From Actinomycetota bacterium (GTDB taxonomy: Bacteria; Actinomycetota; Acidimicrobiia; Acidimicrobiales; Ilumatobacteraceae): a stretch of DNA of 64,000 nucleotides. Positions 24,833 to 32,954 of the stretch are shown in pieces (within the stretch, counting starts at the first letter, position 1; each line of letters starts with the position of its first letter). The DNA lies in the NCBI GenBank assembly GCA_016213625.1, contig JACQZZ010000030.1, forward strand, positions 1-64,000, given 5' to 3'. The notes below the pieces were generated by a model that ran no database searches, was not told the DNA's origin, and saw nothing but the letters and a program-made list of their open reading frames with translations. Position numbers and translations under genes: made by a program.

Positions 24833-25279
24833 ATGGAATCGAACCGCCGCCGCCTCATCGTCATCAGCACCATCTCCGGCGTGATGGTCTTCGGCGCCGC
24901 CGGCTTCGCCGCGGCCGCCACAGGGGGTGCCGATCACGTGCGCATTCCCGTGGTGTCGCTCACCGTCCCCAACTCGGTCGACGACGACAGCGACGACGAC
25001 ACCACCACCTCGGCCACCGTCGCCGACTCGAGCAGCAGCTCCAGCACCGACCCCACCGTCACCGCGGCGTCGGTCGAGCCGTCGGTGAGCGCCAACTCTG
25101 TCGAGACCTCGAACTCCATCGACGACGACGATGACGACGACGCCACCAGCTCGTCGATCGACGACGACGACGATGACGACGACGACAACAGCGGCCACGG
25201 TGGCGGCGACGACGATGACGATGACGACGACGACAACAGCGGCCACGGTGGCGGCGACGACGACGGCGACGACGACTGA
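24833..25279 (+). CDS. Secreted Asp-rich protein with two perfect 16-residue repeats
   Basis: The 148-residue product has a signal or anchor helix (about 8-29), a Val/Ser/Thr region, and an acidic C-terminal half. Residues 110-125 and 126-141 are identical: nine Asp followed by NSGHGGG. The DNA repeat is 48 bp. Such Asp tracts with Gly/His spacers can bind calcium or other cations, but no known domain is present. A strong TGGAGGA site precedes the ATG. It follows the sigma/anti-sigma pair on the same strand and may be a target of that sigma factor. Codon choice within the Asp tracts (GAC/GAT) is slightly varied, so the protein sequence is conserved over the DNA. Confidence 0.75.
   Translation: MESNRRRLIVISTISGVMVFGAAGFAAAATGGADHVRIPVVSLTVPNSVDDDSDDDTTTSATVADSSSSSSTDPTVTAASVEPSVSANSVETSNSIDDDDDDDATSSSIDDDDDDDDDNSGHGGGDDDDDDDDDNSGHGGGDDDGDDD
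25163..25258 (+). repeat. 48-bp tandem repeat coding for the Asp/GHGGG units
   Basis: Two in-frame copies, offset by exactly 48 bp, encode the two 16-residue units. The NSGHGGG coding part is identical in both; the Asp part differs only by GAC/GAT changes. Confidence 0.7.
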
Positions 25280-25307
25280 CGCCTCCTCCGATCGGTGCGA
25301 CCTCGTC

Positions 25308-25313
25308 CATACT
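25308..25313 (+). promoter_or_regulatory. Leaderless -10 element for ung
   Basis: CATACT ends 7 nt before the GTG at 25320. It supports this GTG as the start and a leaderless transcript. Confidence 0.45.
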
Positions 25314-25319
25314 GGACGG

Positions 25320-25985
25320 GTGTCGACCACCGATTGGAACCCGGTCCTGCGTGGCGAGTTCGCCAAGCCGTACTGGCAACAACTGCAACGGTTCGTAGCG
25401 GGCGAGCGCGCCCGCTACGCCGTTTTTCCCCCTGATGCACAGGTCTTCGCGGCGCTGCACCTGACCACCTTCGCCGACACTCGCGTGGTCATCCTCGGTC
25501 AGGACCCGTACCACGGGCCGAACCAGGCCCACGGCCTCTGCTTCTCGGTGCAGCGAGGCGTGGCAGTGCCCCCGTCGCTGGCGAACATCCACAAGGAACT
25601 CACCGCCGACCTCGGTGTGCCGGCACCGCCGCACGGCAACCTCGAGGACTGGGCGCGCCAGGGCGTGCTGCTGCTCAACACCACCCTCACCGTGCGCGCC
25701 GGCCAGGCCGCCTCGCATCAGGGCAAGGGGTGGGAGGTGTTCACCGATGAGGTGCTGAAGGCGGTGAACCAGAAGTCGCACCCGGTGGTGTTCATTCTGT
25801 GGGGTGCGGCGGCGCGGCGAAAGAAGTCGCTGATCGACCTGCAGCGACACACGGTCATCGAGTCGGCACATCCATCACCGCTGAGCGCACACAACGGCTT
25901 CTTCGGGAGCCGGCCGTTCTCACGCACGAACGCTGCGCTCGAACAGGCCGGACTCCCACCCATCGAGTGGTGCATCAGAACGTGA
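25320..25985 (+). CDS. ung: Uracil-DNA glycosylase, family 1
   Basis: The 221-residue enzyme removes uracil from DNA in base excision repair. Family-1 motifs are clear: GQDPYHG with the water-activating Asp, LLLNTTLTV, and HPSPLSAHNGFFG with the transition-state His. Length matches the family (about 220). The GTG start at 25320 has a leaderless -10 box; the longer open frame upstream translates the Asp-rich gene out of frame and is not real. The stop codon lies inside a perfect 32-bp palindrome shared with the convergent transporter operon. Confidence 0.96.
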   Translation: MSTTDWNPVLRGEFAKPYWQQLQRFVAGERARYAVFPPDAQVFAALHLTTFADTRVVILGQDPYHGPNQAHGLCFSVQRGVAVPPSLANIHKELTADLGVPAPPHGNLEDWARQGVLLLNTTLTVRAGQAASHQGKGWEVFTDEVLKAVNQKSHPVVFILWGAAARRKKSLIDLQRHTVIESAHPSPLSAHNGFFGSRPFSRTNAALEQAGLPPIEWCIRT

Positions 25986-27813: not shown

Positions 27814-30741
27814 CTACCCCCTGTTGCCGCTGCGCGAGTGCGCCGCTGTGTTGTTCCCCAAATAGCTCTCTATCACGTCCGGATGATCGAGGACGTCGGA
27901 GGGCCGTCCGGACGTGAGCACGGCCCCCTGGTCCAGTGCGACCAATCGGTCGCTGATGGACGCGATGAGCGGGATGTCGTGCTCGATCACGAGCAGACTC
28001 GCCCCCATCTCGTCGCGAAGTCGGCGCAGCACCGGCGCCAGCGCCTCCACCTCGCGCTGCGCGATGCCACTCGACGGTTCGTCGAGCAACACCATCACCG
28101 GCCGATGGGCGGCGATGCACGCGAGGTCGACGATGCGCCGCGTCCCGGTCGACAGCTCGCGCACGAACGAGTTGCGATAGGCGCCCAGGTGCATCAGCTC
28201 GATGAGTTCGTCGACACGCAACGCCGTGCGTTCCTCGTCGTCGAACACCGCCGGCCAGCGAATGGCCGCGGCCAGCGCGCTGCGGTTGGAGACCCATCGC
28301 TCCAACGACACGGCCAACGTCTCGGCCACGGTCATGTCGGGGAACAACCGGGCATCCTGGAAGCTCCGTCCCAGTCCGGCCGCCGCCCGTGCGCTGGCGG
28401 GCATCTCGCCGATCTCGATGCCGTTCAGGACCACTCGACCCGTGTCGAGCGGGACGAAGCCACTGATGAGGTCGAAGATGGTGGTCTTGCCCGCGCCGTT
28501 GGGACCGATGACGCCGACGATTTCGCGCTCGCCGACGTCGAACGATGCGCCGTTGACCGCGCGGTTGCCACCGAAGGCGACGGCGATCTCGATCACCTGC
28601 ATCAGCGGCGCAACGTCGATGCCCGACGCACCCACCGGCATCGCCGGTTCCGTGCGCTCGCCCGGTTCGGCGGCGCCCGCGAGGAACACCGACCGCAGCA
28701 GGTCCTTGCGATCCAACAGATCCGCCGTGGGACCGCTGAAGCGAATGGTGCCACGCTCCATGAAGTAGGCGCGTTCGGCAATGGTGAGTGCGACGTTCAC
28801 GCTCTGCTCGACCAGGATGACGGCAGTGCCTTCGGCCGCGACGCGTTGGACGAGGGGAAGCAGTTGACCCACCACGACGGGGGCGAGCCCCAGCGACAGT
28901 TCGTCGATGAGCAACACCCGTGGCTTGGCCACGAAGGCCATGCCCAGCGCGAGCATCTGCTGCTGCCCGCCGCTGAGATCCGCCGCCGGTCGGTCGAGCC
29001 GATCACGCAGCACCGGGAACAGCGTGAGCACTTCCTCGACCGCGACCACCACGCCGTCGGGGTCGGCACGACGGGTCCAGCCGGCGAGTTGCAGGTTCTC
29101 GGCGACCGACAGTCCGCCGAACACCCCCTGCCCGCCCGGCATCTGGCTGATGCCGAAACCGGCGATCTCCTCCGGCGGCGCGTGCGTGACGTCGCGGCCG
29201 TCGAGGATGACCGCACCACGATCGGCCTCGACCACGCCACTGATGGCCTTCAACAGCGTGCTCTTTCCGGCGCCGTTGGTACCGAGGAGGGCGACGATCT
29301 CGCCCTCCTTGACGTCGATGTCCACACCGAACAGCACCTGCCGTCCGCCGTACCCGGCGTCGACGTTGCGCACGAGCAGCAGATCGGCTTGTCCCTGCCG
29401 GCGTTGGTAGAGCGCTTCGCTGCGGGCAGCCGACGCCTGCCACACCTGGGCGATGTCGGCATCGATGGTGTCCTTCGCCGAGCGCAGGATGAGGCTGCCG
29501 ATGATGAACAGCGGCACGAGCGTGAGCATGCCCCAGCGGATGCCGACATGCGTGCTGATCCACCCGATGACGGGAAGGATGAACAGGCCGGGGATGACCC
29601 ACAGCGAGGCCACGCTGAAGCCCGTGGCACGGGCTCGGGCGGGGATGGCCAAGGAGAGCGCCACCAGGATGCCCGGCCCCACCACGGCCAACGCCGCGGA
29701 GATGACGCAGTTCAGTGCCACCGCCACCACGACGTTCGGCGCCGCGGCGAAGCCGACCGACGCCACCGAGGTGATGACGGCGATGTTGGCGAGGAACTTG
29801 ATGAGGCCCCGCATGTCGCCCATGAAGTGCTTCGTGATGTAGCGCGTGCCGAGGACGAGCCCCCCGAGTCCGAACGGCTCGGCCACCGCGGCAGCGACGC
29901 CACGAGCGCGCTCGTCGAGGCCGAACTGTTGCTCGTAGAGCAACGCGGCGAGGGTGACGAACCCGATGAGGGCGGTGGCCAGGAACGGCAGGCTCCACCA
30001 CAGCCGCTGGAGGGTCTTGATCTTCTGCACCGTGCGCCAACTCTCGGCGAACGACGGCACGGTCTCCTCGGTGTTCACGACGTCGTCGCTGGCACCCGTC
30101 GCCTGTCGTTCCCATCGTCCACGCACGGGTTCGCGCAGGCGGAAGGCCAGCAGCGCGAACACGACGGTGGGGATGACGAACACGAGGAACGGGGTGCGCC
30201 AACCGAAGTAGTACGCGAGCAGACCGGCGCTGAGGGGCCCGACGAACGCACCCACGGCGTTGGCGGCTCGGTGCGTGCTGAACACCTTGCTGCGCGCTTC
30301 GATGGGGTAGTAGTCGGCCAGCAGCGAGTTGTGAGTGGGGTCGATGACGGCCTTGCCGAGCGCGCTGCCGCTGCGGGCGATGGTGAGCATCACGACCCCG
30401 GTGGCCAGACCGGTGAGTCCGCTGAACGTGGCCCACACGAGCGCTCCGACGATGGCCAACGGGACGCGCTTCGAACGGTCGGCGTACTGCGCGATGGGCA
30501 CCTGCAGTGCGAGCGCGGCGATGGACGCGAGTGCCACCAGGCTGAGCGCGCCCGTGTTGTCGAGGTTGAACTCGTCGCGGATGTTGGGCAGCAGGATGCC
30601 GAAGGCCGTACGGTCCAACTCGTCGACCGCGTTCAGGCCGAACAGCACCACGAGCGGGAACGCCGACTCACCGTTGCACACGCCGCGCAACCACTCCATC
30701 GGATGCGCGAGGTGCGCCAGGAACCGCTTGAACGCACTCAT
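27814..30741 (-). CDS. Fusion: MFS membrane domain - LivF ATPase - LivG ATPase
   Basis: This 975-residue protein joins three usually separate proteins. Residues about 25-425 form a 12-helix MFS domain with the motif-A-like YADRSKR. Residues 453-685 are a LivF-type ATPase: Walker A GTNGAGKST at 487-495, signature LSGGQQQ at 589, Walker B LLIDELSLGL. Residues 710-965 are a LivG-type ATPase: Walker A GPNGAGKTT, LSTG in place of LSGG near 863, Walker B VLLDEPSSG. Its ATG overlaps the permease stop by 4 bp. Both ATPases look intact apart from the altered LivG signature. Why an MFS carrier is attached to a Liv ABC importer is unknown. Confidence 0.93.
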   Translation of the reverse strand: MSAFKRFLAHLAHPMEWLRGVCNGESAFPLVVLFGLNAVDELDRTAFGILLPNIRDEFNLDNTGALSLVALASIAALALQVPIAQYADRSKRVPLAIVGALVWATFSGLTGLATGVVMLTIARSGSALGKAVIDPTHNSLLADYYPIEARSKVFSTHRAANAVGAFVGPLSAGLLAYYFGWRTPFLVFVIPTVVFALLAFRLREPVRGRWERQATGASDDVVNTEETVPSFAESWRTVQKIKTLQRLWWSLPFLATALIGFVTLAALLYEQQFGLDERARGVAAAVAEPFGLGGLVLGTRYITKHFMGDMRGLIKFLANIAVITSVASVGFAAAPNVVVAVALNCVISAALAVVGPGILVALSLAIPARARATGFSVASLWVIPGLFILPVIGWISTHVGIRWGMLTLVPLFIIGSLILRSAKDTIDADIAQVWQASAARSEALYQRRQGQADLLLVRNVDAGYGGRQVLFGVDIDVKEGEIVALLGTNGAGKSTLLKAISGVVEADRGAVILDGRDVTHAPPEEIAGFGISQMPGGQGVFGGLSVAENLQLAGWTRRADPDGVVVAVEEVLTLFPVLRDRLDRPAADLSGGQQQMLALGMAFVAKPRVLLIDELSLGLAPVVVGQLLPLVQRVAAEGTAVILVEQSVNVALTIAERAYFMERGTIRFSGPTADLLDRKDLLRSVFLAGAAEPGERTEPAMPVGASGIDVAPLMQVIEIAVAFGGNRAVNGASFDVGEREIVGVIGPNGAGKTTIFDLISGFVPLDTGRVVLNGIEIGEMPASARAAAGLGRSFQDARLFPDMTVAETLAVSLERWVSNRSALAAAIRWPAVFDDEERTALRVDELIELMHLGAYRNSFVRELSTGTRRIVDLACIAAHRPVMVLLDEPSSGIAQREVEALAPVLRRLRDEMGASLLVIEHDIPLIASISDRLVALDQGAVLTSGRPSDVLDHPDVIESYLGNNTAAHSRSGNRG

Positions 30742-32954
30742 GCGGGTTCTCCTTCGCGCACGGCGACGGCATCGTCATCGGTGTCGTGGGCGCTGGCCGC
30801 GGCGACGATGGCATCGGTGGATTCGGCGATGATCGATGCCGCCATCTGCGCAGGCGTCGCCGGGTCGAGCGCGGGTTCGTCGGCGAGCGCGGCGACGACG
30901 CGGTCGTCGGGCGGCGGCTCGTCGACCCGATGACCGGTGAGGAGACGGACGAAGGTGTCGCGCAGCTTCACCCACAGGCTGCCGAGGCCGCCGGGAAGCA
31001 CAAGGAGCACGAGCAGCACGCCGAAGCCGGTCGAGAGCAGTTGCCATGCTTGGTCGTTGATGAACCACCGCGTGCCGCGCAGATACAGCGCTCCGAGGAA
31101 CGCTCCACCGAGCGAACCGAGACCACCGATGACGGCGCTGATGAACACGTTGAAGCTCTCACCGGTGGTGAACGAGTTGATGCTGAAGCCCTTGTTCGTC
31201 TGGACCAGCAACGCGCCACCGACCCCGGCGACCACGCCGGAGATGACGAACGCGGTGAGCTTCGCTCGCACGATGTCGACCGAGAAGCTCTGGGCCGCCC
31301 GCTCGTTCTCGCGGATGGCGACGATGACGCGACCCGTGCGTGACCGACGGATGCCGCGCAGCGCGAGGTAGACGATGGAGAGCACGACCACCGAGTACGC
31401 ATAGAAGCGGGTAGGGGTGTCGATGCGCAGTTGCCCGAACAGCGGCGCACGTTCGAAGCCCGCTTCCGCTCGCGGGAACCAGTGGAAGAACCGGTCGTTG
31501 AGCAACCAGTACTCCGTGGCGAGCGCCAACGCGAAGGTGGTGACAGCGAGGTAGAGACCGCGTAGGCGCAACGCCGGCACACCCACCAGGAACGCCGCGG
31601 CACCACCGGCGAGACCGCCCACGAGCAAGGACAGGGACATGTCGACGTTCCAGCGCGACGTGAGCGTGGCGCTGACGGCGCCGCCGATGCCGGCCAGCGC
31701 CATCTGACCGAACGAGATCTGCCCCGCCCACCCGGTGAGCACCACCAACGAGAAGCCGATGACCACGAATGCGACGAGCGCGGTGGCCTTGATGACGTTG
31801 TCGACCTCCAGCACCAGCGGCACCGACACCACACCGAGCACGGCCAACGCGATGAGCGTCCACTTCACCGTGGGCACCCAGCCCCAGTTGGCCAGATAGG
31901 GCGGCAGCGGCCGCACTTCCTCGGCACCCCGCCAGCTGCTCGTGGCGTCGTTGTCGCGACGCGACGTGCTCGCCGGCTGTGCCAGCAGCGCGATGAACAT
32001 CGCAGCGGCCATGATCGGGTAGGCGAGGTACGGCGACTCGGAGTTCCAGTTCACGCCCGACTCCAGCAACGACAACGCGATCGCCGCGCAGGCGATGGTG
32101 GGCAGTCGCTCGAGCCGCCCGATCACCAGCGCGGCCAGTGCCACGAGCAGAGCAGGCAGCCCCGCCGCGTAGCCGAGCGGGACACCGGTGATGCCGCTCC
32201 GCAGGAAGAGCGCCAGGAAGGCCAGCGCGCCGGCGATCGACCACACGATGGTGTTGAGACGAGCCACCGGGATGCCGAGCATCGCGGCTCGGTCGCTGCG
32301 CTCGGCGCTGGCGCGGATGGCGATGCCCAACCGGCTGCGGTTGAGGAACCACGCGACGAACGCGATCGACAGCGGACCGAGCGCGAGCGCGATGAGATGG
32401 TTGGCATTCAGGATGTAGCTGCCCGGTTCGGCCTGCCAGAACTTCAGCTGCCACGTGGGGGTGAACTTCCAGTCGACCGGGGGGTCCAATCGTTCGCTCG
32501 CCAGGTTCTTGCCCCACCAGCGGGGGATCAGGATGCCGAGGAGCACCAGCAGTTGACTGATGCCCAGGGTCGCCACCGTCACCACCATGCGCGGTGAACC
32601 GCGGAAGCGGCGGATGAACACCATCTCGACCAGCGCGCCCAGCATCAGCGCCATGGCCAACCCGGCACCGAGACCGAGGAAGTACGGCCACCCCCAGAAG
32701 AGGACGAAGGAGGCGGCGAAGCCCGTGGGCACCGTGCCCAGATCGGCCTGCGCGAAGTTGACCACACGGTTGGCGCGATAGATGAGTGCCAGACCGATGG
32801 CGAGCATCGAGGCGAGCACCCCTTTGACGAGGCTCTCCACCCACACGCCGAACGGCATGCCGAACTTGACGAGCTGGAGCAACACCACAGCCGCGACCGT
32901 GCCCCAGGCGACGGCCGACGTGTAGTTGACGCGTGTTGCCCCCCAGCGACGCAC
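30738..32954 (-). CDS. Fused LivH-LivM branched-chain amino acid-type permease
   Basis: The 738-residue protein carries two permease domains normally encoded by separate genes. The LivH half (about 1-300) has RANRVVNFAQADLG and ASAERSDRAAMLGIPVARLN; the LivM half (about 345-665) has LTGWAGQISFGQMALAGIGG and RENERAAQSFSVD. The acidic C-terminal tail is unlike known relatives. The GTG at 32954 is chosen because TACGGT ends 7 nt before it, and upstream frame is inside the acetyltransferase gene. It is the first gene of the Liv-type operon, 4-bp coupled to the fusion ATPase. Confidence 0.9.
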   Translation of the reverse strand: MRRWGATRVNYTSAVAWGTVAAVVLLQLVKFGMPFGVWVESLVKGVLASMLAIGLALIYRANRVVNFAQADLGTVPTGFAASFVLFWGWPYFLGLGAGLAMALMLGALVEMVFIRRFRGSPRMVVTVATLGISQLLVLLGILIPRWWGKNLASERLDPPVDWKFTPTWQLKFWQAEPGSYILNANHLIALALGPLSIAFVAWFLNRSRLGIAIRASAERSDRAAMLGIPVARLNTIVWSIAGALAFLALFLRSGITGVPLGYAAGLPALLVALAALVIGRLERLPTIACAAIALSLLESGVNWNSESPYLAYPIMAAAMFIALLAQPASTSRRDNDATSSWRGAEEVRPLPPYLANWGWVPTVKWTLIALAVLGVVSVPLVLEVDNVIKATALVAFVVIGFSLVVLTGWAGQISFGQMALAGIGGAVSATLTSRWNVDMSLSLLVGGLAGGAAAFLVGVPALRLRGLYLAVTTFALALATEYWLLNDRFFHWFPRAEAGFERAPLFGQLRIDTPTRFYAYSVVVLSIVYLALRGIRRSRTGRVIVAIRENERAAQSFSVDIVRAKLTAFVISGVVAGVGGALLVQTNKGFSINSFTTGESFNVFISAVIGGLGSLGGAFLGALYLRGTRWFINDQAWQLLSTGFGVLLVLLVLPGGLGSLWVKLRDTFVRLLTGHRVDEPPPDDRVVAALADEPALDPATPAQMAASIIAESTDAIVAAASAHDTDDDAVAVREGEPA

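Follow-up and report, generated by a model that had tools for sequence, protein, structure and literature searches.

We show that a conserved operon encodes an ABC importer of the HAAT (Liv) type in which both ATPases, LivF and LivG, and a Spinster-like transporter of the major facilitator superfamily (MFS) form a single polypeptide chain. The operon was analyzed in a window of 64,000 nucleotides, the whole stretch of DNA under study, taken from a draft assembly in 117 contigs (Table 1). The actinobacteria carrying this fusion are little studied. Proton gradients usually power MFS carriers, and such secondary transport is conventionally set apart from ABC transport as a different mechanistic class; here the two are joined by a link that is covalent, conserved, and old.

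The fusion gene begins with ATG and has no internal stops. Pfam searches of the product placed MFS_1 at residues 34–380 (E 1e-36) and ABC_tran in two stretches (3e-52), while the NCBIfam models matched a UrtE/LivF-like region at 456–675 and a LivG/UrtD-like region at 711–964, so that the chain runs from a 12-helix MFS through a linker helix to LivF and then LivG. Codon-position GC stays coding-like through both joins. At the MFS–LivF join, where the earlier note on this DNA had asked for a frameshift check, it is 0.77/0.48/0.77 and continuous, giving no sign of a frameshift. The AF2 model of the fusion reached a pLDDT of 91.1 and a pTM of 0.78. The ORF is one intact protein of 975 residues, and the claim that MFS, LivF, and LivG lie in one such chain is borne out.

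Table 1. Features of the operon in the window, with one protein from related loci.
Feature	Position	Strand	Basis
MFS-LivF-LivG fusion, 975 aa	27814..30741	-	single ORF; Pfam and NCBIfam domains; AF2 model
MFS domain, aa 21-435, 12 TM helices, Spinster-like	29437..30681	-	MFS_1 E 1e-36; HnSpns 6e8j; SPNS2 8ex5
Linker helix from TM12 to LivF, aa 426-448, conserved	29398..29466	-	DSSP on AF2 model; residue conservation
LivF ATPase domain, aa 453-690, canonical LSGGQ	28672..29385	-	UrtE/LivF matches; VIA Z 32.7 to Thermotoga 1ji0
LivG ATPase domain, aa 712-970	27832..28608	-	LivG/UrtD/LptB matches; motifs invariant
LSTG signature in LivG, aa 863-866	28144..28155	-	S864, T865, G866 invariant in 72 proteins
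LivH-LivM fused permease, ~738 aa, GTG start at 32954 inferred	30738..32954	-	BPD_transp_2 twice, E 1e-52; UrtB/UrtC and LivH/LivM matches
Membrane-anchored type I (LivK-like) substrate-binding protein, 595 aa	26020..27807	-	N-terminal TM ~20-44; AF2 fold; hydropathy
~350-aa lipoprotein-like protein	L168:14472-15512 (-); L179:14177-15271 (-); L190:4770-5735 (+); L200:12318-13433 (-)		

The 117-contig draft from which the window stems might suggest that an assembly, frameshift, or binning artefact produced the fusion, but we give this a vanishingly small chance, since the same continuous ORF occurs in independent genomes, isolates, and single-contig chromosomes, and codon-position GC is unbroken at the join. 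The full-length fusion recurs many times in 61 related genomes, at 88 down to ~40% identity and with continuous frames, and a scan of 84,980 species added 80 further loci. It is present in the cultured Ilumatobacter nonamiensis YM16-303, in the complete chromosome CP011489.1, and on two further chromosomes assembled as single contigs (G032 and G038). The loci read yielded 107 MFS-LivF-LivG proteins that are non-redundant at the 97% level, and the operon composed of LivH-LivM, MFS-LivF-LivG, and binding protein was found at more than 100 non-redundant loci in Acidimicrobiia and their relatives. The fusion gene nearly always follows a LivH-LivM gene and usually precedes a binding-protein gene. 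Genomes with this type of MFS numbered 90/296 in the class sample and 20/396 in the phylum sample. The earlier note had held that separate MFS and ATPase genes in related genomes would expose an assembly error; with the architecture fused at over 100 loci, assembly error as the source of the fusion is ruled out by recurrence. Judged from these sequences, this is a genuine fusion of ancient origin that has been widely conserved.

On the minus strand of the window, the LivH-LivM permease gene comes first, followed by the fusion gene and the gene for the 595-aa binding protein, and the proposal that three polypeptides make up the whole transporter agrees with these genes. The stop codon of the permease gene and the ATG of the fusion gene share the letters ATGA, and AAGGAG lies upstream. 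Only 6 bp separate the fusion stop from the binding-protein start; the three genes thus look like a single translationally coupled unit. The binding protein has one N-terminal hydrophobic segment (residues 22–40) and no cysteine before residue 110, which indicates that it is TM-anchored and excludes a lipoprotein, in line with the tethering claimed earlier. A low-complexity tether lies behind the TM helix. Although a Pfam search of this protein gave no match, its AF2 fold matches LivK/LivJ (Z 23, rmsd 3.7–3.9, ~335 aa), and the closest folds, within a narrow Z range, bind leucine, aromatic acids, and other ligands. LivF and LivG nucleotide-binding domains (NBDs), LivH and LivM subunits, and a type I binding protein were therefore all recognized by sequence or fold, and ATP-driven uptake of amino acids or organic acids would be expected of the system as a HAAT importer.

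Every ATPase motif is intact in the LivF and LivG halves. Across 72 aligned proteins, both halves show little or no variation in the Walker A, Q-loop, signature, Walker B, and switch residues, and in LivG the first four motifs and H921 are invariant. The best Foldseek match of the modeled ATPase pair was the double-NBD chain DppD, a loose fit (TMt 0.64, rmsd 7.3 Å). The LSTG that had been noticed in place of LSGG in LivG is present and occurs in 127/129 LivG halves of MFS-LivF-LivG proteins. It was also found in proteins lacking the MFS, namely 8/8 LivF-LivG and 3/3 LivH-LivM-LivF-LivG chains, and in 9/11 LivH-LivM-LivG chains (10/11 with LSTGM counted). By these counts LSTG characterizes this entire LivG clade, whether or not an MFS is attached. 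Its equal presence in MFS-less LivF-LivG rules out any particular tie between LSTG and the fusion.

The arrangement in the window (LivH-LivM, MFS-LivF-LivG, and binding protein), which we call type 1, is one of several. In type 2, MFS-LivF accompanies a LivH-LivM-LivG chain, LivG being joined to LivM; other loci encode LivH-LivM, MFS-LivF, and a separate LivG, or an MFS-less set of LivH-LivM, LivF-LivG, and binding protein, and stand-alone MFS genes also occur among relatives. The genome of the window itself has a type 2 system (MFS-LivF plus LivH-LivM-LivG; contig C60, L160), and the cultured Embleya sp. NBC_00888 (Streptomycetaceae) has a complete type 2 set of binding protein, MFS-LivF, and LivH-LivM-LivG. 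In quick trees of both LivF and the MFS, for which SH-aLRT was the only support, MFS-LivF (with LivH-LivM-LivG) and MFS-LivF-LivG part near the base. MFS-less LivF-LivG operons fall inside fused clades, such as L206 with its LivH-LivM and type 1 binding protein, and no remnant of the MFS linker was seen in MFS-less LivF-LivG proteins. An old fusion with several losses would fit these quick trees, as would repeated gains. Since LivF-LivG without MFS and lone MFS genes both exist, the MFS is a separable module. One lone MFS gene (L185:8646-11699, minus strand; L133) groups with the type 1 fused MFS and has no ATPase gene nearby. At L212:3986-8068 (+), L225:4927-8697 (-), and L207:3-4085 (+), LivH, LivM, LivF, and LivG share one open frame, so that one polypeptide apparently makes up an entire HAAT transporter; the chains at L212 and L225 have no MFS.

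The closest PDB sequence to the MFS domain is HnSpns (6e8j, E 4e-13). By fold it is nearest to SPNS2 (8ex5, VIA Z 41.9), tied with SPNS1 (9boi), and VAChT comes next within ~1.5 Z; the domain is Spinster-like, not strictly Spinster. Gating residues have been assigned in HnSpns, with Glu129 as the TM4 protonation switch (PMC9440201), and a role has been described for the extracellular salt bridge between TM2 Asp and TM7 Arg (Asp60/Arg289 in HnSpns; PMC13192786). The motif A charge relay of HnSpns (Asp87-Arg91-Asp142), TM1 Asp41, and TM4 Arg122 correspond here to D88, R92, D143, D43, and R123, which are kept at 98–100% in type 1 (107/108, 108/108, 107/108, 106/108, and 106/108, respectively). 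The TM4 glutamate switch is absent, its position being occupied by Lys130. Lys or Arg stands there in 48/65 type 1 proteins, against 2/21 Spinster-like MFS from the same class that are not fused; 14 of these 21 have Gln. The extracellular bridge is absent as well, with Asn62 and Gln271 at its two positions: TM2 Asp is kept in 6/65 type 1 versus 16/21 unfused proteins, and TM7 Arg in 6/65 versus 15/21, the latter alignment being less sure than at the N-terminal positions. Raw Fisher p values for these differences range from 2e-7 to 1e-8 and are overstated, since the sequences counted are related and not phylogenetically independent. The cytosolic TM6–TM7 loop carries E233, R236, and R246, conserved at 99% or more in type 1 and variable in type 2 and unfused proteins, and in the linker helix region A439, R447, and G450 are at least 90% conserved and D429 is invariant in A3.

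An inert membrane anchor or assembly scaffold would be compatible with a fusion that fixes stoichiometry and with relatives whose importer has no MFS. We regard it as improbable: motif A, TM1 Asp, and TM4 Arg would not need to be retained at this level in a passive anchor, and the identity of the MFS to that of the window exceeds that of LivH, LivM, and binding protein in 46, 47, and 46 of 47 loci, respectively. The MFS domain thus seems constrained as a moving transporter core, and its residues point to a functional carrier whose proton coupling is altered. The type 2 MFS of L160 has lost motif A Asp as well as TM4 Arg, so that some members of the family, this one included, may be inactive as carriers.

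At somewhat less than even confidence, we tentatively favor the view that this is an ordinary HAAT importer to which a second, functional permease is tethered, one that handles the importer's own substrate or a linked one, in either case a hydrophobic organic anion. Two observations speak for it: the gating core has been preserved, and conservation is higher in the MFS than in LivH, LivM, and the binding protein. One MFS-LivF-LivG chain would assemble 1:1 with one LivH-LivM chain, the LivF/LivG pair lying head to tail beneath LivHM. The anchored binding protein would hand its ligand to LivHM, and import would be driven by ATP. Speaking against this view, the importer itself does not need the MFS, because MFS-less LivF-LivG operons sit inside the fused clades. 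Least certain is the part of the MFS, which beside LivHM would act as a second alternating-access permease, its stoichiometry fixed by the conserved linker helix and its movement no longer driven by a Spinster-type proton switch. Its cargo may be the hydrophobic organic anion that LivHM imports, or another to which metabolism links it, with the MFS serving re-uptake, leak-back, or product efflux.

The loss of the proton-sensing residues beside a preserved gating core is equally compatible with an MFS turned sensor. Such a transceptor for substrate or membrane energy would shift its conformation on binding a ligand and thereby gate ATP hydrolysis by LivF/LivG through the linker helix, whose conservation fits this role, as do E233, R236, and R246, invariant specifically in the fusion clade. 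Sensor kinase–MFS fusions form TCDB family 2.A.1.34 (listed in PMC3924187), and PMC12740885 presents yeast Snf3/Rgt2 as MFS proteins turned sensors. We nevertheless judge this explanation rather unlikely, as a pure sensor could do without 98–100% conservation of motif A, TM1 Asp, and TM4 Arg, and importers of the same clade exist without any MFS.

The attached ATPases could also energize the MFS, besides or instead of LivHM, much as ArsA energizes ArsB, a carrier working with an ATPase. The proton-switch residues are lost in the very domain that gained the ATPases, and in both sister architectures the MFS is joined directly to LivF; however, LivHM is always encoded in the same operon and normally fills the LivF/LivG coupling grooves. 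MFS proteins are not known to have ABC coupling helices. Unfused class mates mostly lack the TM4 glutamate too, and we hold ATP driving of the MFS to be distinctly unlikely. The wider idea of an MFS without proton coupling that is driven or gated by the C-terminally fused ATPases, a hybrid primary/secondary transporter with two paths and one motor pair, is doubtful but not slight, because it pools ATP driving with ATPase-gated sensor and permease variants. With the proton-sensing residues changed and the gating core kept, the fusion makes coupling between an ATPase cycle and MFS alternating access directly testable.

Gene neighborhoods gave few clues to the substrate. Acyl-CoA ligase or dehydrogenase genes occur in the vicinity of a minority of loci only, and what window-type loci have in common is confined to synteny genes (uracil-DNA glycosylase, YihY-like, sigma factor, and GNAT). 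In the window, low-complexity ORFs with a high content of Asp or Ser/Thr overlap one another at 24833-25279 (+) beside the uracil-DNA glycosylase gene (25131-25982), and the upstream start listed for that gene is probably not its real start. At L193:10782-14291 (-), a type 2 operon (binding protein, MFS-LivF, LivH-LivM-LivG) has a linalool dehydratase/isomerase-family gene directly upstream (PF18566, E 5e-49), which makes a terpenoid substrate possible at this one locus. Pfam searches of 82 neighbors in two multi-copy genomes found no catabolic theme and exposed a link to MoxR, DUF58, and TgpA. One well-supported MFS-LivF-LivG clade (L165 to L172, L179, L190, and L200) is associated with genes for a MoxR AAA ATPase, DUF58, and/or a TgpA-type transglutaminase, often codirectional and with overlapping ends. 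In this clade the LivH half is strongly diverged, the binding-protein gene is at the far end or missing, and a secreted lipoprotein-like protein with no Pfam match lies between TgpA and LivH-LivM (Table 1). These features hint at a cell-envelope role, and not a nutritional one, for this branch. At L177, L178, L209, L210, and L213, a conserved secreted protein of ~310–375 aa, apparently with a C-terminal TM segment, directly follows LivF-LivG with or without the MFS.

The open-access full text that was searched contained no account of an MFS joined to Liv ATPases. 'MFS transporter' or 'ATP-binding protein' labels in these lineages may conceal the other half of the protein. Compared to HAAT/Liv importers (LivFGHMJ; UrtABCDE; TC 3.A.1.4), the system has the same LivF, LivG, LivH, LivM, and type I LivK-like binding protein with all motifs, but LivH is fused to LivM and LivF to LivG, the MFS sits at the N terminus of LivF, the binding protein is held by a TM helix, and LivG has the LSTG of its clade instead of LSGG. 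Spinster proteins (HnSpns, MsSpns, SPNS1, and SPNS2), a family of lipid and drug transporters, provide the best fold (Z 41–42) and the nearest solved sequence, and the fused MFS retains their motif A charge relay, TM1 Asp, and TM4 Arg. This likeness rests on sequence and fold, and the MFS here differs in Lys130 for the TM4 Glu, in Asn and Gln for the TM2 Asp–TM7 Arg bridge, and in the two ATPases at its C terminus. The ArsA-ArsB arsenite pump also has a carrier cooperating with an ATPase, but from unrelated carrier and ATPase families and without a covalent importer fusion. Members of TC 2.A.1.34 join an MFS to an ATP-using cytosolic module, which is a kinase and not a pair of ABC ATPases, and no importer is involved. 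In Rhodococcus, CamM (MFS) and CamABCD (ABC) both re-import cholate intermediates (PMC6678751), a precedent for one metabolite class being served by both types of transporter; these are separate proteins, and the comparison with the fusion is one of function. Each half of the fusion belongs to a known kind, and the system is best placed among the HAAT importers, as one that carries a Spinster-like MFS.
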